Source: Candidatus Meridianibacter frigidus
GTDB lineage: Bacteria > Vulcanimicrobiota > Vulcanimicrobiia > Vulcanimicrobiales > Vulcanimicrobiaceae
DNA: 64,000 nt
Assembly: GCA_003243975.1 (NCBI GenBank)
Contig: QHBJ01000015.1
Location: 1 to 64,000 of the forward strand
Direction: 5' to 3'
Shown here: one piece after another, positions 6,279 through 40,289 of the stretch
Position numbering within the stretch: the stretch's first letter is position 1
How the letters are laid out: every line of letters starts with the position of its first letter
Translations under genes and position numbers: made by a program
The notes under the pieces: generated by a model
Seen by the model: the letters and a program-made list of their open reading frames with translations, nothing else
What the model was told of the DNA's origin: nothing
Databases searched by the model: none

Positions 6279-6830
6279 TTATGAGCGGCCCGTTGCCTTT
6301 GCTTTTTTGCGGGACTTCAAAAAGTACACCAAGACCCGTTTCTCTTCGCGAAAGCCAACCAAGCTCTTGGACTGCCGTGGATCGCGCATGGAATCCAGCG
6401 CGCAGTCCACTAGCTCTTCTTGGGCAATCGGATCCTCTTCGAAATGATCTTCGGGCACGGGGTTGCGAACCATTAGCTCGCCGAAGCGCTCGGCGAAGAG
6501 ACTCACCAAGAGCATGAGCTCCTCTTTGGAGAACGTTTCCAGGTCGCGCGTGAGGTGGATGAAAGTCACGGCGCGGTCGGCTTCGCACTCCACGCGTACT
6601 ACCCGAGGACTCTCGTCGCGCAGGTGCAGGAACCCCTCGACGTGTTCGTTCACCGCGGCCACGGCGGCGCTCTGCGCGGCCCGGTCCAGACGCGCGCTGA
6701 CCACGACGGTGAATCGAACCGTGCCATCGTCGGGCATGGATCGAACTGATGCGATCTCTGGAAAACGAACCAGCAAAGCGCAGATTAGACTAACGGTATC
6801 GGCGTTTTCGTGGGGCAGCCGGGCGTTCAT
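6279..6830 (-). CDS. Conserved hypothetical, first gene of the ymdB-spoVS cluster
   Basis: A 183-residue soluble, acidic protein with no signal peptide or membrane segment and no family that I recognise. The middle part (VVRVECEADRAVTFIHLTRDLETFSKEEL) is amphipathic, and the C-terminus is strongly basic (KSRKKAKATGRS), which could contact nucleic acid. The stop lies at the beginning of ymdB, so the two are probably translationally coupled. Its position, where the RNase gene rny often sits in other genomes, makes an RNA-related role possible but unproven. Confidence 0.6.
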   Translation of the reverse strand: MNARLPHENADTVSLICALLVRFPEIASVRSMPDDGTVRFTVVVSARLDRAAQSAAVAAVNEHVEGFLHLRDESPRVVRVECEADRAVTFIHLTRDLETFSKEELMLLVSLFAERFGELMVRNPVPEDHFEEDPIAQEELVDCALDSMRDPRQSKSLVGFREEKRVLVYFLKSRKKAKATGRS

Positions 6831-6935
6831 GAGGAGGCCAACTTCTTTCTGTGCCGGGGACGACCTGAGGGTGGGCGCCTTACATTGGACGCCCGCTCAG
6901 CGCGACACCTTTTGGAGCCACCATATCGCCCCACT

Positions 6936-6953
6936 GTGCCAGCTGGGTGGCAC
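6936..6953. repeat. Inverted repeat ahead of the metal importer
   Basis: GTGCCA, a 6-base spacer, then TGGCAC form a perfect inverted repeat about 45 bp before the start of the binding-protein gene. It could be an operator for a metal-responsive repressor or a leader hairpin. It does not match a known Zur or DtxR consensus, so its role is only suggested by position. Confidence 0.3.
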
Positions 6954-6998
6954 TTGATCGGCGGAGGGATTCCTCGCCCGCTCGCCGAGACCGAGACC

Positions 6999-7871
6999 AT
7001 GGGCCTCCGGAGCATCATCTCACTTGCAGCCGCCCTCTTGGCAATGTCCGCCTGTGCAAACAAGGGTGGGCCCCCCGGGCCTCAACGCACCGTCGTTACC
7101 ACGATGTCGACCCTCGCCTCGCTGGTGCAAATGGTCAGCGGCGACCGCTGGCAAGTCGTCAATCTCGTCCCGGTTGGCGCTTCACCCGAGGACTATCAAC
7201 CCTCGCCGCGCGACATCGAGGCCCTCCGGCGTGCGCAGATTTTGGTCGAAAATGGAGCCGGCATCGAAGTGTGGCTCAACCATCTCCTGGACGCCGCACG
7301 GAACATCAACATGCAAGTGGTGGTCGCCACGCAAGGCGTGCAGCTCAAGGACGGCAACCCACATGTGTGGATGGACCCGGTCGCCGCGCAGGAGTACTTA
7401 AAGAAAATCGAGGCCGCGCTCGAACGCGCCGACCCCGAAGGCACTCCGTACTACCGGACTCGCCTGCAAACCGCAATCCAACAGCTGCAGGCACTCGACG
7501 CGGCCGTTCGCTCGCAGATCAAGACCATTCCCCCCGGCGCGCGCAACATGATCGTCTTTCACAATGCCTGGCAGTACTACGCTGATCGCTACAGCCTTCG
7601 CGTAGTGGGCGCCATCGAACTCTCACCGGGACAAGAGCCCTCACCGCAGTACCTCTCCAAGCTGGTCAAACTGGCTAAGAGTCATCACGTGCGCGTGATA
7701 TTTGCCGAGCCCGAGTACAACAAGAAGCTGGCGACCGTTTTGGGTGAAAGTGCCGGTATAAAGACGGTAAGCAATCTGTACGACGATTCGCTCGGGACCA
7801 GTCCCGAGGTCAAGGATTACATTTCGCTCATCACTTACGATACGAACGTCATTGTTAATGCCCTCAAGTAA
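6999..7871 (+). CDS. Zinc/manganese ABC importer, substrate-binding lipoprotein
   Basis: A cluster A-I metal-binding protein (ZnuA/MntC/TroA family) that captures Zn(II) or Mn(II) and delivers it to the permease. The start chosen is the ATG at 6999 because a lipoprotein signal follows at once (LLAMSAC, lipid anchor near residue 20). The upstream in-frame extension has no conserved features. Expected metal-ligand histidines are visible in NPHVWMDP and FHNAWQYY, with an acidic residue in the AEPEYNKK region. A long His-rich loop, common in strict ZnuA proteins, is absent, so manganese is also possible. It is followed by ATPase and permease genes with overlaps. Confidence 0.9.
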   Translation: MGLRSIISLAAALLAMSACANKGGPPGPQRTVVTTMSTLASLVQMVSGDRWQVVNLVPVGASPEDYQPSPRDIEALRRAQILVENGAGIEVWLNHLLDAARNINMQVVVATQGVQLKDGNPHVWMDPVAAQEYLKKIEAALERADPEGTPYYRTRLQTAIQQLQALDAAVRSQIKTIPPGARNMIVFHNAWQYYADRYSLRVVGAIELSPGQEPSPQYLSKLVKLAKSHHVRVIFAEPEYNKKLATVLGESAGIKTVSNLYDDSLGTSPEVKDYISLITYDTNVIVNALK

Positions 7872-8619
7872 TCGCGCGCGCCCGCGCGATGCCGTGTGGA
7901 TCGACGACCTGTGGGTGCGCTACGACGGGTCTTTCGCGCTCGAGCAAATCAATATCGTCGTGCACGCCGGCGAAGCGGTGGGCATCATCGGCCCGAACGG
8001 ATCGGGGAAATCGACGCTTCTGAAAACGATCGCCGGGCTGCTGGCCCCGGCGCGCGGTACGGTTGAGGTCTTCGGCAAGCCACCCCGCTCGCTGCCGCCG
8101 GGCAGCATCGCGTATGTTCCGCAAGTGGAAGTTGTGGACTGGAGCTTTCCGGCGACCGTTTGGGATGTCGTCGCAATGGCGCGCTTCGCGCACTTGCGAC
8201 CGTGGCAGCCCTTCTCGGCGGACGACCGCTCGCTGATCGCACGCGCATTGGAGGCCACTCGCATGGCGGATCTCGCGAGCCGGCCCATCGCCGATCTTTC
8301 CGGGGGGCAGCAGCAGCGCGCCTTTATGGCACGCGCTATAGCGCAGGAACCCAAACTGCTCTTGCTCGACGAACCGACCTCCGGCGTCGATGCATCCACC
8401 GAAGACGTGCTCGCCAAACTCATTCGCTCGCTGGCAGCCGACGGGCTCCCTGTGCTCATGGCCACGCACGACTTAGAGCGGGCCGAAGATTTCTTCGACT
8501 ATCTCGTGCTGCTCGACCGGCGTTGCATCACCTATGGACGACCCTCCGAAGTGCTGGCCTCAAAAGAGTTTCGGCGCGTACTCTCGCACGGGCACCATAT
8601 CGCGGGATCACACCGATGA
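7858..8619 (+). CDS. Zinc/manganese ABC importer, ATPase
   Basis: The nucleotide-binding subunit of the importer. Walker A is GPNGSGKST near residues 46-54, the Q-loop is VPQVEVVDWSFPATV, the ABC signature is LSGGQQQR, Walker B is LLLLDEPTSGVD, and the H-loop is MATHD. The VDWSFP segment after the Q-loop is typical of MntB/ZnuC-type ATPases. I chose ATG 7858 rather than TTG 7852; both lie inside the end of the binding-protein gene, showing tight coupling. The stop overlaps the permease start as ATGA. Confidence 0.93.
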   Translation: MPSSNRARPRDAVWIDDLWVRYDGSFALEQINIVVHAGEAVGIIGPNGSGKSTLLKTIAGLLAPARGTVEVFGKPPRSLPPGSIAYVPQVEVVDWSFPATVWDVVAMARFAHLRPWQPFSADDRSLIARALEATRMADLASRPIADLSGGQQQRAFMARAIAQEPKLLLLDEPTSGVDASTEDVLAKLIRSLAADGLPVLMATHDLERAEDFFDYLVLLDRRCITYGRPSEVLASKEFRRVLSHGHHIAGSHR

Positions 8620-9449
8620 ATTGGCTCCTGGCTCCGTTCGCCGATGATTTTATGGTGCGCGGTTTTATCGCCGCCGTCTTGGTCGGAGTCTTGTGCTCGG
8701 CCATTGGGACCTTCGTGATCTTGCGAAAGCTGGCATTCATCGGCGACGGGATCGCGCATGCGTCCTTCGCGGGCATCGTGATTGCATATCTCAGGGCGGC
8801 GAACTTCTACGTGGGCGCGGCCGTAGTGGCGGTCATCACGGCGCTCGCTATCGGGTTCGTTCACCGCCGCGGTCGCGTTTCCATGGACACGAGCATCGGC
8901 GTGCTCTTTACGGGCGCGTTTGCGCTCGGTGTCTTTCTGATGAGCCGGCAACGTACGTACAGCGTGGATCTGCAGGATTTCTTATTCGGAAATATTCTGG
9001 GTGTCACGCGCTCCGATGTTTGGTTTATCGTCGCGCTCGCGCTCTTGGTCGGCGCAGCCCTGGCGTGGCTCTATCGGCCGCTGGTCTACACCTCGTTCGA
9101 TCCGGTCGTGGCGCAAGCCAGCGGTATAAACGCGGAGCTCGTCGATTATGCGCTGTTGGTTCTGCTGGCACTAACGATCGTGGTGACACTCGAAGCGGTC
9201 GGAATCGTATTGGTGGCCGCGCTATTGGTCACGCCCGCAGCGACCGCGTTTCAGTTGACGCGCCGCTTCGCGCCGATGATGGGAATCGCAGCGCTGGTCG
9301 GTTGCCTCAGCTCGGTCGGAGGACTCTACCTGTCGTACTACCTTAATGCGGCAAGCGGCGCCACCATCGTACTGGTTGCGACGGCATGCTTCTTCGTTGC
9401 CATCGCGCTACGGCGGCTTCGAGTCTACGCCGTTTCTACGCGCCCGTGA
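8616..9449 (+). CDS. Zinc/manganese ABC importer, permease
   Basis: A 277-residue integral membrane protein of the ABC-3 family (ZnuB/MntA/TroC), with about eight to nine transmembrane helices. Family motifs include GTFVILRKLAFIGDGIAHASFAG near the N-terminus, the substrate-path region that follows TM2, and EAVGIVLVAALLVTPAATA near the C-terminus, the coupling helix region. The start is ATG 8616, overlapping the ATPase stop. The gene completes a three-gene importer. Its 3' end overlaps the convergent His-rich gene by 25 bp. Confidence 0.93.
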   Translation: MNWLLAPFADDFMVRGFIAAVLVGVLCSAIGTFVILRKLAFIGDGIAHASFAGIVIAYLRAANFYVGAAVVAVITALAIGFVHRRGRVSMDTSIGVLFTGAFALGVFLMSRQRTYSVDLQDFLFGNILGVTRSDVWFIVALALLVGAALAWLYRPLVYTSFDPVVAQASGINAELVDYALLVLLALTIVVTLEAVGIVLVAALLVTPAATAFQLTRRFAPMMGIAALVGCLSSVGGLYLSYYLNAASGATIVLVATACFFVAIALRRLRVYAVSTRP

Positions 9450-9637
9450 TTATCGCAATGACCTGAGTGGGCGTTATGCAAGTGCCCGCCCACAACGTAG
9501 TCCATGTGGTCACCGTGCGACACCGGGTCGTGGCCGCATTCCGAGCCATGGCTGTGCGCAAGCTCGTGCCCATTGCATGCGTGACCCTCGACACAGCGAT
9601 CGGGGTTGGCCGGAGTAATTTTCACCTGGTCGGTCAT
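9425..9637 (-). CDS. Small His/Cys-rich metal-binding protein
   Basis: About 70 residues with unusual composition: at least ten His and several Cys arranged as GHACNGHELAHSHGSECGHD, SHGDHMDYVVGGHLHNAHSGHCDNHG. Proteins with the same pattern (HGDHxDYxxxGHLH) often accompany zinc importers and exporters in Actinobacteria and others. It probably binds zinc or another soft metal in the cytoplasm as a buffer or chaperone; this is inference from composition and from the convergent ABC importer. The ATG at 9637 is preferred over a GC-rich extension with no conserved features. Confidence 0.8.
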   Translation of the reverse strand: MTDQVKITPANPDRCVEGHACNGHELAHSHGSECGHDPVSHGDHMDYVVGGHLHNAHSGHCDNHGRVETA

Positions 9638-9705
9638 CGCCCTATTATACCCCGCCCGGTACAAAATGGACGCACCTCGCGGGCGCAGAACGTGCGTTCT
9701 CATCC

Positions 9706-11579: not shown

Positions 11580-13334
11580 TTACGCGCCAGCTGCGGCAAG
11601 AACCAGATCGGTGCCGTAGGCAACCAAAAAGCCCAAAGCCAAACCGATGACACCGACTTCCACGAATCCAACTTTGCGCGCCACGTGCAGCATCTCGCTA
11701 ATCACGAAGATGATTGCACCCGCGGCAAGGGTGAGAAACAGCACTGAAAGCGTGGGTGAAACCAACAGGTAGCCGACAACCGTCCCGATGAACGTCGGAG
11801 CGCCGCCGATAACGCCTGCCAGCAGCAAGAATCGCCACTTCACCGAAGGGGCTTGCATAAGGGGAGCCGCGATGCCGAATCCCTCCGTCGCATTATGCAG
11901 CCCGAACCCGATGATCAGCATGTAGGCAAGTTGAATCGCACCCGTGGCGGCCGATTGCCCGATCGCCAATCCCTCCGCGAAATTGTGCATTCCGATGCCG
12001 AGTGCGATGATGAGGGAGAGCGCGAGCGGACTATGGCCTGCGGCCTCTTTCGCCCCGCGGATGAAAGAACGCGTTCCATACACCAACCCGACCAGCCCGA
12101 CGCTCAGCCCCATTACGAATACCAGCAGCAGCGTTATAAACTCGTTCGGATCTCCGCCGCCGGACTGTGCGTTGCGCAGCGCGTCCTGGATCGGTTCGCT
12201 GGCCTGTTTGATGACATCGAACAGCAGGAAGAACAAAACGCCCACCGCCAGCGAATTGAGGAAGGCCATCACTTGCGGCGCGACGCGGCGAATCTTTGCT
12301 ACGGGCAAACCGAGGAAAATGGTGACGCCCGCGATGCACCCCAGCAGAATCGTGCTCCAAAAGGGAAGCTGCCCGCGAGAGCCATGTGACGTGCCACCCA
12401 TTGCGGTGTCCAAGGAGGCCATGGTATCCGGAGTGCCGCGGTAATGCAGAGCCGTGATTAAACCGCCGGGCATGACGTTGCCGTTCATCATGTGATCCAG
12501 CACATGACAATGGAGCAGCCATGTCCCGGGGTTCGCATCGGCTTTGACGATGGTGTCGATGGTTTGGCCCGGTCCGATGAGCAAGGTGTTTTCCACGTCG
12601 TTATACGTCACCGGATTTCCATCGCGGGCGATGATGCGCATCCGATGGCCGTGCAAGTGCATCGTGTGAAACTCGGTGCCGCTGATATTGATAAAGCGCA
12701 AGCGAATCGTTTCGCCGGCGCGCACCTCGAGCGGCACGGTTTCCGGATATGCCTTGCCGTTAAGCGAGAAAAAATTCTCGGCGTCGTTGCGAATGCGCCA
12801 ACTGGAGATGACCTCCAGGTAGTCGTGGTCTACCTTGGGCGGGTTCTTTTCGTCGACAATGACCGCGCCGTACAGCCCCCGGTCGAGTTGGTCGAAATCA
12901 TTGAAGTGCGTATGGTAGATATACGTGCCCGAGCGCAGCGCGACGAATTTGTAAAGGAAGGTCTGACCGGGGGCTATGGGCGACTGCGAAACGCCCGGGA
13001 CCCCGTCCATGTCGTTGGATACCGGTAATCCATGCAGATGCACGACCGTGGGCTCGGGTAGGTGGTTGGTGACCGCAATCTCGACTCGATCGCCCACGCG
13101 CACGCGCAAAACCGGGCCCGGCACGATACCGTTGTACGCCCAGGCGCGGACCACGGTGCCTTTGGTAACCTCCCAATCCACCACCTGGGCGGTCAGACCA
13201 AAATGCTTCGTACCATCAGGCAGGACGGCGGGCCGCAAATACTCCAGCCCCTCCCCGCCCCTGACGAGCTGCGCCGACGCGAACCCGGGTAGGATGACGA
13301 ACAAGCAGGCGGCGAGCCACGGAAACGAACGCAC
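11580..13334 (-). CDS. Two-domain multicopper oxidase fused to a ZIP metal transporter
   Basis: A 584-residue fusion. After a signal peptide (MRSFPWLAACLFVILPGFASA) come two cupredoxin domains carrying the copper motifs in the usual order: HLHG near 99-102, HTH near 141-143, HTMHLHGH near 223-230 and HCHVLDHM near 275-282. This is enough for a type 1 site and a trinuclear cluster. Residues from about 325 on form an eight-helix ZIP permease with the metal-path motifs HNFAEG in TM4 and HNATEG in TM5. ZIP proteins have both ends outside, so an N-terminal periplasmic oxidase is topologically sound. I chose GTG 13334 (GAGGA just upstream, perfect signal peptide) over ATG 13373, which sits inside a palindromic operator. 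The substrate is probably Fe(II), Mn(II) or Cu(I). Confidence 0.88.
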   Translation of the reverse strand: MRSFPWLAACLFVILPGFASAQLVRGGEGLEYLRPAVLPDGTKHFGLTAQVVDWEVTKGTVVRAWAYNGIVPGPVLRVRVGDRVEIAVTNHLPEPTVVHLHGLPVSNDMDGVPGVSQSPIAPGQTFLYKFVALRSGTYIYHTHFNDFDQLDRGLYGAVIVDEKNPPKVDHDYLEVISSWRIRNDAENFFSLNGKAYPETVPLEVRAGETIRLRFINISGTEFHTMHLHGHRMRIIARDGNPVTYNDVENTLLIGPGQTIDTIVKADANPGTWLLHCHVLDHMMNGNVMPGGLITALHYRGTPDTMASLDTAMGGTSHGSRGQLPFWSTILLGCIAGVTIFLGLPVAKIRRVAPQVMAFLNSLAVGVLFFLLFDVIKQASEPIQDALRNAQSGGGDPNEFITLLLVFVMGLSVGLVGLVYGTRSFIRGAKEAAGHSPLALSLIIALGIGMHNFAEGLAIGQSAATGAIQLAYMLIIGFGLHNATEGFGIAAPLMQAPSVKWRFLLLAGVIGGAPTFIGTVVGYLLVSPTLSVLFLTLAAGAIIFVISEMLHVARKVGFVEVGVIGLALGFLVAYGTDLVLAAAGA

Positions 13335-13363
13335 GAAGTCCTCGCAAATAGGGCCGGAGAGCA

Positions 13364-13381
13364 AATTAGGCATGCCTAATT
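13364..13381. promoter_or_regulatory. Perfect 18-bp DtxR/IdeR/MntR-type palindrome
   Basis: AATTAGGCATGCCTAATT is a perfect palindrome with TTAGG/CCTAA arms, the core of DtxR/IdeR boxes. It ends 30 bp upstream of the GTG start of the oxidase-ZIP gene, in the space shared with the divergent sigma-factor gene. An IdeR-class regulator is encoded at 39624-40289. The operator identity rests on consensus similarity, not on binding data. Confidence 0.75.
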
Positions 13382-13464: not shown

Positions 13465-14034
13465 ATGGGAGCCATACGCAAGCCGCTGGATCCGCCCTCG
13501 CGCGAACAGACCGCCTTTCTCGAACGGGCCATCGAGCAGTACGGTAAGGCGACCTATAATTTTGCGTACCGGCTCACCCGGAACGAGGCGGACGCGCGGG
13601 ATCTTACCCAAGACGCCTTCATCCGCGTTTATCGCGCCTGGAGAAGCTTTGTCCCCGGCACCTCGTTTCTTTCGTGGATCTACCGGATCGTAACAAACCT
13701 CTACCGGGATGAACTTCGGCGCAAGAAAGGACGTTTCCAGGAAGAGATACCCGAAGACAATGCCCCGCAAGAGTTCGGCGGTGAGCGGCCGCTGGCCGTA
13801 AATCCGATCGACGAATACGTCGAGGGACAGCTCAGCGAACCGCTCTCGCGGTCGCTGGGAATGCTCTCGCCGGACCAGCGCCAAGTTGTCATCCTGGCAG
13901 ACATCGAGGAGTATAGTTATCAGGAGATAGCGGAGATCATGGGATGTTCGATCGGCACGGTCCGATCGCGCCTCCACCGCGCGCGAGCGCTTCTGCGCCG
14001 TCTCGTCCAAAAGCAGCAATCTCAGGCACAATAA
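13465..14034 (+). CDS. ECF-family RNA polymerase sigma factor
   Basis: A 189-residue sigma-70 family factor with region 2 (YNFAYRLTRNEADARDLTQDAFIRVYRAW, which binds the -10) and region 4 (LSPDQRQVVILADIEEYSYQEIAEIMGCSIGTVRSRLHRARALL, the -35-binding helix-turn-helix). It resembles RpoE/SigW-type factors. A zinc-type anti-sigma gene follows after 9 bases, and an RseB-like gene overlaps that, giving a complete envelope-stress type module. The promoter side is shared with the oxidase-ZIP gene and its metal operator, so the two may be co-influenced. Confidence 0.93.
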   Translation: MGAIRKPLDPPSREQTAFLERAIEQYGKATYNFAYRLTRNEADARDLTQDAFIRVYRAWRSFVPGTSFLSWIYRIVTNLYRDELRRKKGRFQEEIPEDNAPQEFGGERPLAVNPIDEYVEGQLSEPLSRSLGMLSPDQRQVVILADIEEYSYQEIAEIMGCSIGTVRSRLHRARALLRRLVQKQQSQAQ

Positions 14035-14043
14035 GAAAAAAAT

Positions 14044-14565
14044 ATGCAGCATCCAACAACTGAACGACTGATCGACTACATCCACGCCGCGCTCGCACCG
14101 CAAGACGACGCGGCGGTGCACATGCATTTGGATGAATGCTCCGAGTGCCGGCAGGAGCACGCCGTGCAGATTCGCCTTTCCGAAATGCTGCGCGCCGATG
14201 CAGCAGCGCACGAACGCGAGCTTCCGCCCATGTTAAAGGCACAAATCTGGAACGCTGTTCGCAGTTTGGAGCCGACCGCGATGGATCGCGTGCGCGCTTG
14301 GTTGCGGCCCGCTTACTCCGTGCCCGTTGCCGCCGCTCTTATCGTGGCAGCCTTCGTTGCCCCGGGTTACCTGCACCATAACGCATCCGGCGCACCTAGC
14401 ATCGATGCCGCCTACTACCTGCAGGACCACGCCGCAATGAACGGAGCTACCCCCTTCGGCGACCACTCCGGCTCAGCGGCTGCGCAGTTCGAAGAAACGT
14501 CGAACGTCGATCAAACCGTCTTGCATGCCGTGCCGGTAGTCGGTATGGCGCGTGTTTCACGCTAG
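14044..14565 (+). CDS. Anti-sigma factor with zinc-finger (ZAS) domain
   Basis: A 173-residue single-pass membrane protein. The N-terminal ZAS domain has HLDECSEC, giving the HxxxCxxC metal motif at about 28-35. A transmembrane helix (VPVAAALIVAAFVAPGYL) lies near 97-114 and a short periplasmic tail follows. Such proteins hold their partner sigma factor inactive until stress or redox change releases it. The gene lies between the sigma factor and the RseB-like gene, with which it overlaps by 14 bp. Confidence 0.88.
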   Translation: MQHPTTERLIDYIHAALAPQDDAAVHMHLDECSECRQEHAVQIRLSEMLRADAAAHERELPPMLKAQIWNAVRSLEPTAMDRVRAWLRPAYSVPVAAALIVAAFVAPGYLHHNASGAPSIDAAYYLQDHAAMNGATPFGDHSGSAAAQFEETSNVDQTVLHAVPVVGMARVSR

Positions 14566-15586
14566 CAAGACTTTCGCGCTAGGGCTGGGTCTGCTCGTCC
14601 TCGGCGCGGCGCCGAGCGATCAGCCGCCGGGACCAGACGCCGACGGTCTTCTGCATTTGAGCATGCTTGCGCCTACGCGTCTCTCGTACGTGGGGCGTTT
14701 GGAAAGCGTGCAGTTCGGCGGATCGAAGAGCGAAGCTACAATCTACCGCATCGAACACCGCGCTCCCAACCTGACGCGTCGCTGGTATCTGGCGCCTCAG
14801 TCGCTTTTCGGCGACTGGAGTCTGACCCGGGGATCGACGGCCTACAATGTGGACGTCAAGCGGAAGCGCATCTACGTTTCTACGAACAAGGTTCTTGACG
14901 ATCAGGTAGCACTCGACGACAACTTCGGATTGCTCACTTCGAATTATCGCGTGCTGCCGGCCCCCCCGCAGACGGTCGCGGGCCGCGTTACAATCGCGCT
15001 GCTGCTCATCAACAAGTATACCGGGCAGATTGCCATGCGGCTGTGGATCGACAAAGAGACCAAGCTTGTGCTTCAAAAGGAATCGTACTCCAGTAACGGC
15101 GCCGTCACGCGGCAGCTGCGCTTCGATGAAATCCGTTACACCGCCGATCTTCCGGCGCCAGTTTTTCAGCCCCCAAACCTTCCCGGCTTTACGATGGGCA
15201 AAGGAGCGACGCATCACGCGCCCTCGAACGACCTGCTTTCGGTCGTGAAAGCAGCCGGTTTCTCAGCCGGCTTCCCCAAGTACTTGCCGGATGGGTTCTT
15301 GCCGGTCGCGGGGGACGTCAGCGACATCAAAAGCATTCGGAATCTGCACCTGCTCTACTCCGATGGCATTCGCACCCTCTCACTCTATGAGAACGCGCTG
15401 GGCGCGGCGGTCGACCTAAGCCGCTTCCGGACGCAGCAGGTGCACTTTCAAGATTATACCGGCGACTTCGTTCAAGACGGGTCGACGACGCTGCTTGCAT
15501 GGCACGATGAGGGGTTGCACTTTGCGCTGGTGGGCGAACTCTCCCGCGCCGAGCTGGTCAAGATCGCATCTTCAGTCGCCAAATAA
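14552..15586 (+). CDS. RseB/MucB-like periplasmic sigma regulatory protein
   Basis: A 344-residue protein with an N-terminal signal peptide (ALGLGLLVLGAAPS). It has an N-terminal domain resembling the LolA/LppX-like fold of RseB and MucB (YVGRLESVQFGGSKSEATIYRIEH) and a C-terminal small domain (PKYLPDGFLPVAGD...HLLYSDGIRTLSLYE). RseB proteins bind the periplasmic part of their anti-sigma factor and sense misplaced lipids or lipoproteins. The GTG start lies inside the anti-sigma gene. The 3' end overlaps the convergent deacetylase gene by 15 bp. Confidence 0.8.
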   Translation: MFHASKTFALGLGLLVLGAAPSDQPPGPDADGLLHLSMLAPTRLSYVGRLESVQFGGSKSEATIYRIEHRAPNLTRRWYLAPQSLFGDWSLTRGSTAYNVDVKRKRIYVSTNKVLDDQVALDDNFGLLTSNYRVLPAPPQTVAGRVTIALLLINKYTGQIAMRLWIDKETKLVLQKESYSSNGAVTRQLRFDEIRYTADLPAPVFQPPNLPGFTMGKGATHHAPSNDLLSVVKAAGFSAGFPKYLPDGFLPVAGDVSDIKSIRNLHLLYSDGIRTLSLYENALGAAVDLSRFRTQQVHFQDYTGDFVQDGSTTLLAWHDEGLHFALVGELSRAELVKIASSVAK

Positions 15587-38995: not shown

Positions 38996-39627
38996 CGCGT
39001 TTCGATATGAGATTCGAGTTGCTCTCCCGTGTTTGCGTCGACGACGTACGCCCGGACTGGGCGGGGCGGGAAGAACGTCGCGTATGTGAAGATGAAGCCG
39101 ACGATCAATCCTGCAATATGGGCTTCCTTGGAGATAAACGAAAGCGTGAAAGTGATGATCAAGTTCAGCACGAGGATGCCGATGTTGGCCTTGATCAGCT
39201 TCATGCCGGCCGGCCCGTATTTGAATCCGATGGCAAAGAGTGCGCCGAAAAGACCGAAGATAGCTCCGCTGGCACCTAACGTTGGCACCAGCGGTTGAGA
39301 AAAAAAGACGACGCCGAAACTGGCGCCGATGAGAGAAATAAAGTAAATCAGAAACATGCGCGTCGAGCCGACAGTCCGTTCGATGAAACGGCCCAGCGCC
39401 GCCAGCGAAATCATATTGACCGCGACGTGGATCAGACTGCCGTGCATGAAACCGCAGGTGATCATCCGGTAGTATTCATGGTTCACCTTGACGTCAACCG
39501 GAGCAAGAATATAATTTACGATCGGCGAGGAAGAGGAAATCTGCCCGCTGAGCGCGCCGCCTCCCGTTACTGCGAGTTCCCAAAGAAATGCAAGGACGTT
39601 GAGCAGAATGAGAAGGTTGGTTATCAT
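38992..39627 (-). CDS. Rhomboid intramembrane serine protease
   Basis: A 211-residue membrane protein with six helices. The catalytic Ser sits in LGASGAIFGLFG (GxSG) and the catalytic His in EAHIAGLIVGF; the HVAVNMISLAALG segment in TM2 is also typical. Rhomboids cleave transmembrane segments of other proteins within the bilayer. The start overlaps the dtxR stop (ATGA) and the gene continues into the helicase. The substrate is unknown. Confidence 0.93.
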   Translation of the reverse strand: MITNLLILLNVLAFLWELAVTGGGALSGQISSSSPIVNYILAPVDVKVNHEYYRMITCGFMHGSLIHVAVNMISLAALGRFIERTVGSTRMFLIYFISLIGASFGVVFFSQPLVPTLGASGAIFGLFGALFAIGFKYGPAGMKLIKANIGILVLNLIITFTLSFISKEAHIAGLIVGFIFTYATFFPPRPVRAYVVDANTGEQLESHIETR

Positions 39628-40289
39628 TCGATAACGATTACCATTCGCGCAAGTTCCAACGAGATCGCATGCTCTTGGCCCTCGATTTCAATGGAAACCG
39701 GGCCTCCGAGCGGCGCCTTCGGGCCAACGCGAACCCTTGCACCGGGACGCAATCCTATCTCATCTAAGTAACGCAAGATTTCGGGAACCTCTTCGGTAAC
39801 GCCGTGCACGACCGCACAGCTATCGCTCTCCAGCTGCGCCAGCGGAACTCCCGGACGATGCGGCTCGGAAAGATCCAAAGGTGGAATAGGGTGACCGTGG
39901 GGACACGTCTTGGGGTCATTGAGGACGCGCACCAACTGCTCTTCGACGCGCGCGGAGATCGCATGCTCGAGCATGCATGCCTCGGAGTGCACTTGGTCCC
40001 ACGGCATGCCCAAAACGTCGGTGAGCAAGCGCTCGGCCAAGCGATGGCGGCGAATGACGCGCACGGCGACTTCCAAACCAGTGCGGGTAAGCTTGGCTTC
40101 GCCGCGGGCTTTGTGTTCGACGTAACCATCGTTGGCGAGCTTCTTGATCATCGCGGACGCCGACGCAGGCGATACGCCGAGCTCGGAAGCAAGCCCGGAT
40201 GTCGTTACGCCCGGGCCTTCGCGCTCCAGACGATAAACCGCCTCGAGATACTCTTCGATGGATTCCGCGAAGTGCGTGTGGCCCGGCAT
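39624..40289 (-). CDS. DtxR/IdeR-family metal-dependent transcriptional regulator
   Basis: A 221-residue repressor: N-terminal winged helix-turn-helix (EEYLEAVYRLE...VSPASASAMIKKLANDGYV), dimerization and metal-binding domain, and a C-terminal SH3/FeoA-like domain. The site EACMLEH matches the Cys/Glu/His ligand set of iron-sensing DtxR and IdeR rather than the Glu variant of MntR, so iron is the likely co-repressor. The start is ATG 40289. It is embedded in an operon after add. Its likely target in the window is the TTAGG/CCTAA palindrome at 13364-13381. Confidence 0.92.
   Translation of the reverse strand: MPGHTHFAESIEEYLEAVYRLEREGPGVTTSGLASELGVSPASASAMIKKLANDGYVEHKARGEAKLTRTGLEVAVRVIRRHRLAERLLTDVLGMPWDQVHSEACMLEHAISARVEEQLVRVLNDPKTCPHGHPIPPLDLSEPHRPGVPLAQLESDSCAVVHGVTEEVPEILRYLDEIGLRPGARVRVGPKAPLGGPVSIEIEGQEHAISLELARMVIVIE

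Follow-up and report, generated by a model that had tools for sequence, protein, structure and literature searches.

In the Fet3-Ftr1 system of yeast, an exported multicopper oxidase (MCO) and a membrane permease are made when iron is scarce, and iron uptake by an oxidase coupled to a permease has been described chiefly in yeast and algae, where the permease is Ftr1. ZIP proteins, whose N- and C-termini both lie outside, are known for the transport of divalent metal ions and are normally thought to act with reductases or alone. A combination of the two families has been described in ammonia-oxidising archaea, in which a ZIP gene immediately adjoins the gene of the two-domain oxidase MCO1 (PMC5767755; PMC7785015). 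Judged from that published description, the gene reported here, mcoZIP, shares with the archaeal pair a two-domain MCO and a ZIP-family permease, but the archaeal proteins are encoded by separate genes and have been proposed to act on copper or hydroxylamine. A literature search confined to open-access papers found no description of an MCO-ZIP fusion, in agreement with the initial annotation, which knew of none. The single-chain form and its IdeR-type control appear to be new, while the parts and the idea of coupling them are already known.

mcoZIP lies on the minus strand of the window, the 64,000-nucleotide stretch of DNA analysed here, at positions 11580-13334, and encodes 584 amino acids from a GTG start. 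The frame is open, with zero internal stops, back to a first ATG at 13373 (11580-13373, 597 amino acids), and residues of the product are numbered here from that ATG, not from the GTG. The GTG at 13334, which was also the start chosen at the outset, is preferred because GAGG lies about 6 nt upstream of it, a good, clean signal peptide follows, and the operator described below then sits upstream of the gene; the ATG at 13373 falls within the operator palindrome itself. The predicted signal peptide (residues 14-34, positions 13272-13334, minus strand) was read by eye as VRSFPWLAACLFVILPGFASA, cut after ASA and before Q, and homologues have similar hydrophobic leaders.

Domain matches, invariant motifs and a structure model all bear out the earlier proposal of a complete two-cupredoxin MCO and an eight-helix ZIP in one polypeptide. 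Cupredoxin domain 1 (residues 64-177, 12843-13184, minus strand; Pfam PF07732, Cu-oxidase_3, 4e-40) carries the motifs HLHG (H112, H114) and HTH (H154, H156) and no type-1 Cys, and domain 2 (residues 198-301, 12471-12782, minus strand; PF07731, Cu-oxidase_2, 8e-28) carries HLH (H239, H241) and HCH (H288, H290) together with the type-1 copper ligands H236, C289 and H294. All copper motifs are therefore present, and eight trinuclear-cluster His with the type-1 Cys and His confined to domain 2 make this a two-domain MCO. The trinuclear-cluster His and the type-1 Cys and His are invariant over 34 aligned rows (about 30 distinct genomes); by eye, the axial ligand of the type-1 site is probably the invariant Leu305, which follows a loop insertion. 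A Foldseek search with the first part of the model returned the two-domain laccases and MCOs 2zwn, 3g5w and 3gdc as the nearest solved structures. They have the fold and copper motifs of the oxidase half in common, but are soluble and without a permease, whereas the mcoZIP oxidase is joined to a ZIP. Oxidases of this two-domain class form homotrimers with copper clusters between the subunits, and ZIPs are often dimers; the model is of a monomer.

The ZIP half spans residues 338-594 (11592-12362, minus strand) and contains HNFAEG (463-468), HNATEG (493-498) and E560. Against Pfam Zip it scores 30.2 bits (3.5e-7), short of the 35.1-bit cut-off, and its match to NCBIfam ZupT (residues 339-585, 1.5e-14) likewise stays below the cut-off of that model. 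Weak in Pfam, the ZIP identity is nevertheless clear from the ZupT match, from the solved BbZIP (5e-7) and from both HNxxEG motifs. With eight helices, HNxxEG on TM4, a matching motif on TM5 and similarity to known ZIPs, it can be placed in the family, and the H, N, E and G of both motifs are invariant over the same 34 rows. In the AlphaFold model, two beta domains precede eight long helices (residues 338-594); built from nine sequences only (mean pLDDT 67, pTM 0.45), the model is too weak for reading the junction, the copper geometry or ferroxidase residues. The HNxxEG on TM4, the Glu on TM5 and the TM7 Glu of BbZIP (5tsa) and ZupT align with mcoZIP, but TM5 of mcoZIP carries HN where those proteins have QD, and the TM6 Glu of BbZIP falls, as read from the alignment, on a non-acidic residue, so that the second metal site of mcoZIP looks weaker. 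BbZIP and ZupT also have no oxidase, unlike mcoZIP. Since a signal peptide precedes the oxidase and both termini of ZIP proteins are external, the oxidase should lie outside, and the exported N-terminal oxidase initially envisaged is supported on both counts.

Relatives of the fusion were found (E<=1e-90) in 73/149 genomes of the Eremiobacterota, a phylum of soil bacteria about which little is known, in 33/70 genera belonging to three families (f1-f3) of one class. They are 47-82% identical, and 65 of the 73 run end to end in one frame, most of the others stopping at contig ends. One single-contig genome is different: its fusion match (G007:C1:1899014-1899988) ends at residue 363 in a 442-codon frame, a copy that is truncated or frameshifted. 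Among close relatives, dN/dS is approximately 0.08-0.18 for the MCO half and 0.09-0.14 for the ZIP half, with the linker looser. An origin by frameshift or chimera was rejected, as the same frame is open in 73 genomes with differing neighbour genes. The initial annotation had raised a frameshift or stop between the domains, or two separate proteins in close relatives, as grounds against the fusion; the same open frame recurs in the relatives, and the close relatives are all fused. In an exact-peptide scan of genome contigs, whose sensitivity is low, fused relatives appeared only in Eremiobacterota (the records of two of these name another phylum or none); the ZIPs of the mcoZIP subfamily found in Actinomycetota stood alone. 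About half of the genomes of the phylum are without the fusion, which counts against the function that we favour below.

The sequence AATTAGGCATGCCTAATT, a perfect palindrome of 18 bp at positions 13364-13381, contains TTAGG-N4-CCTAA at 13366-13379, 31 bp upstream of the mcoZIP start. Its core is identical to TTAGGNNNNCCTAA, the 14-bp consensus that a 2021 study (Nucleic Acids Res., PMC8464063) proposed for the site bound by one dimer of iron-dependent IdeR/DtxR, and we regard it as an operator of this type. The 1.95-Mb genome holds a single perfect copy of TTAGG-N4-CCTAA, the one at mcoZIP, along with six sites with one mismatch; a reversed-pattern control gave more matches overall (42 vs 7). 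The box adjoins the start of the fusion gene in 18/18 f1 and f2 homologues tested, 14 without mismatch and four with one, against 0.05 expected from shuffles of the same upstream regions, and its four central bases vary between homologues, as expected of an operator. Chance was rejected as its origin, given the sole perfect site in the genome and the excess over expectation, and so was an operator belonging to a conserved neighbour, at least in f1 and f2, where the neighbours are not conserved. In the locus considered here, the operator occupies an intergenic region shared with a divergent gene set (13465-15586, plus strand) for an ECF sigma factor, a zf-HC2 anti-sigma factor and a MucB/RseB-like protein, and this sigma/anti-sigma neighbour is likewise not conserved in relatives. 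Upstream of one fusion (L134, genome G008), the perfect box is accompanied, at a distance of about 22 bp, by another that is partial, AGGCATGCCTA, which suggests tandem repressor sites.

The probable reader of this operator is a DtxR-family repressor composed of HTH, metal-binding and FeoA domains and encoded within the window at 39624-40289 on the minus strand (the ORF runs to 40445; MPGHTHF at 40289 is the likely start); no second PF01325 protein was found in this genome. In the sister family f3, a PF01325 gene stands directly upstream of mcoZIP on the same strand in 10/10 genomes listed in both scans; on close inspection of individual loci, the two genes share 4 bp in several cases, or else dtxR ends 8 bp before mcoZIP begins, and an IdeR-type box precedes dtxR. 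The box at the fusion start in f1 and f2 and the two-gene dtxR-mcoZIP operon in f3 both point to the same family of regulators.

Which metal such a regulator senses may be read in part from its ligands, with Met10 and Cys102 marking the iron type of DtxR and Asp/Asn with Glu the manganese type (PMC10317159). The f3 DtxR beside the fusion has M10/C102, the iron type, and together with the IdeR-type box this is a sign in the sequence that would fit expression in iron starvation. Against iron, the f3 regulator is without two His of the ancillary site, and the DtxR of the present genome, like most f1 regulators, has E10/C102, between the iron and manganese types, so that for this genome iron is favoured but not proven. 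Alternatively, the ZIP could import Mn(II) while the MCO removes competitors, Fe(II) or Cu(I), by oxidising them on the outside, for selectivity or protection. The best NCBIfam match of the present DtxR is the manganese regulator MntR (147 bits, below the cut-off), the DtxR genes beside separate MCO-ZIP gene pairs of Arthrobacter and Sinorhizobium look manganese-type (Asp/Glu, by eye from translations), and an NRAMP gene has the same box in relatives, all of which would suit such a manganese importer with a guarding oxidase. The operator is, however, of IdeR type, and in f3 the two kinds of regulator are divided between the two transporters, the mcoZIP-linked DtxR being iron-type and a separate DtxR beside NRAMP, in three genomes, being manganese-type (D10/E102). 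We judge the manganese importer a serious rival, if on balance an unlikely one.

Other genes that follow the box in relatives form a metal-acquisition set. In five relatives (G002, G004, G005, G009 and G017; loci L112, L115, L118, L119 and L125), genes of NRAMP-family transporters whose TM1 motif is ADTEAGS instead of DPGN begin 8-60 bp downstream of a box. An exported protein of 360-380 residues with one CxxCH near its N-terminus is encoded just after an IdeR-type box in nine relatives (L106, L107, L108, L109, L111, L113, L120, L121 and L122). Two of these proteins were compared with both Pfam and NCBIfam and a third with Pfam, with no match, and their size and layout recall outer-membrane cytochrome-porins of the Cyc2 type. 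Two boxes also lie between a divergent gene for a second MCO, of three-domain type, and a gene for a TonB-dependent receptor (L123:944-3999). Near the fusion in the window, a ZnuA-type binding protein, an ABC ATPase and an ABC-3 permease (6810-9449, plus strand) make up a Zn/Mn ABC importer that is without an IdeR-type box; next to it, a small ORF with an exceptionally high content of His, Cys and Asp (9425-9703, minus strand; CVEGHACNGHELAHSHGSECGHDPVSHGDH...) possibly encodes a metal-binding protein.

FeoB was found in 0/55 of the searched genomes of f1-f3 and in 4/5 from other families of the phylum; FTR1 (PF03239) was found in 0/60 relatives searched. DtxR-family proteins occur in f1-f3 genomes where tested. 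NRAMP proteins are present in 59/60 relatives, so the fusion is not the sole divalent importer, a further point against the favoured function, and the idea that NRAMP replaces the fusion where it is missing finds no support in this distribution. That mcoZIP is an oxidase-coupled ZIP iron importer, controlled by an IdeR/DtxR box, and stands in for FeoB across this bacterial class is a possible but somewhat doubtful extension.

Searches of plasmids revealed MCO and ZIP as separate genes, in that order, in Rhodococcus, Arthrobacter, Rubrobacter, Deinococcus QL22, Sinorhizobium and cyanobacteria. In these pairs the MCO gene comes directly before the ZIP gene, often with a 4 bp overlap, whereas mcoZIP is one chain; a DtxR-family gene lies near the pair in Arthrobacter, Rubrobacter, QL22 and Sinorhizobium and is divergent in several pairs. 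Both proteins form separate branches distant from the halves of mcoZIP, the ZIP bears an extra N-terminal domain that the ZIP of mcoZIP does not have, and the type-1 Cys is in domain 1 instead of domain 2. The distance and the position of this Cys indicate parallel pairings and not an unfused parent of mcoZIP. In three lineages a Rieske (2Fe-2S) gene follows the unfused pair (L049:6779-9518, L131:3269-7192 and L133:3752-6420), and its product is a possible electron-transfer partner. As adjacent but separate genes are limited to lineages that are remote for both proteins, they speak for functional coupling and not for an artefact.

A second single-chain form is encoded on a plasmid of Deinococcus sp. 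KNUC1210 (WP_239052023.1, annotated as a multicopper oxidase; L047:7944-9755). It joins ZIP and MCO as mcoZIP does, but in the opposite order, and it has QCH in place of HCH, so that one type-3 copper ligand seems lost. With both ZIP termini outside, either order places the oxidase outside. Pairs in several phyla and two fusions in opposite order imply that MCO and ZIP work together, and this recurrent pairing, the best evidence on the point, is strong evidence that the halves of mcoZIP do so. The Deinococcus fusion is carried by a metal-resistance plasmid, and both this fusion and the pair of Rhodococcus are found in heavy-metal islands that also encode CDF and P-type ATPase proteins. Such surroundings would suit a resistance function, with the oxidase rendering Fe(II), Mn(II) or Cu(I) harmless and the ZIP anchoring the oxidase or moving metal for storage. 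For mcoZIP this seems improbable, as its loci in Eremiobacterota are outside metal islands and a gene with a DtxR box at its start site should be repressed by metal.

Copper uptake, slightly less probable again, is the role suggested by the archaea. The MCO1-ZIP gene pair occurs in most ammonia-oxidisers (PMC5767755), and in Nitrososphaera viennensis MCO1 and the adjacent permease are modestly upregulated under copper limitation, for which a route was proposed in which the MCO oxidises Cu(I) to Cu(II) and the ZIP imports Cu(II) (PMC7785015). The regulation of mcoZIP is of DtxR/IdeR type and not that of a copper sensor, however, and copper genes were seen next to it in none of 15 neighbourhoods. 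Least probable is a laccase-like oxidase that acts on organic substrates, such as iron-holding ligands, with the ZIP importing the freed metal, which recommends itself through the structural likeness to two-domain laccases such as 2zwn and 3gdc but has no direct support, the substrate not being readable from sequence.

It is likely, then, that mcoZIP is a metal importer with a coupled oxidase under iron or manganese regulation. An exported oxidase and a ZIP behind an iron-sensing DNA switch make it the probable single-protein equivalent of what yeast builds from two proteins for iron uptake. By analogy with its protein families, an Fe(II)-loaded DtxR-family repressor would shut mcoZIP off when iron is plentiful, and repression by a metal-loaded DtxR would mean that the protein is made in shortage of iron (or manganese). 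The oxidase would then sit at the mouth of the ZIP pore, outside the cytoplasmic membrane, and the ZIP would move metal inwards. Least certain are the steps between: the oxidase may take electrons from Fe(II) at the type-1 copper, reduce O2 to water at the trinuclear cluster and, on the most likely reading, pass the iron on to the permease fused to it, in the manner of Fet3 and Ftr1. Because known ZIPs carry divalent ions, the hand-off may instead consist in the release of iron from ligands or in control over which metal enters.

Several points weigh against a ferroxidase in this position. We know of no ZIP that passes Fe(III); an oxidase beside a divalent importer would deplete the importer's substrate unless the hand-off were direct; and the nearest solved oxidases are laccases, not ferroxidases. 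The full version, an importer induced by iron starvation that works like Fet3-Ftr1 with an unrelated permease, is accordingly held tentatively, at a little short of an even chance. Like Fet3-Ftr1, mcoZIP would be an exported MCO coupled to a permease and made when iron is scarce, but the yeast system consists of two proteins, a three-domain oxidase and an Ftr1 of REGLE type, whereas mcoZIP is one chain with a two-domain oxidase and a ZIP. With a permease from another family (FTR1 was searched for and is absent), it falls outside the Fet3-Ftr1 system proper. The analogy to Fet3-Ftr1 in the initial annotation stands in part: that the permease is unrelated to Ftr1 is confirmed, and the parallel has gained an operator, a dtxR-mcoZIP operon with iron-type ligands and a class without FeoB or FTR1; ferroxidase coupling itself stays at the strength just given.

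If the ferroxidase-coupled reading is true, mcoZIP would be the first ZIP working with a ferroxidase and a convergent solution to the problem that Fet3-Ftr1 solves in yeast. Found in bacteria that have no FeoB, this single chain of MCO and ZIP with its iron-type operator also offers a compact protein for direct tests of hand-off from oxidase to pore. Beyond the Eremiobacterota, mcoZIP suggests that the unexplained MCO1-ZIP pair of ammonia-oxidising archaea may be a metal-uptake module.
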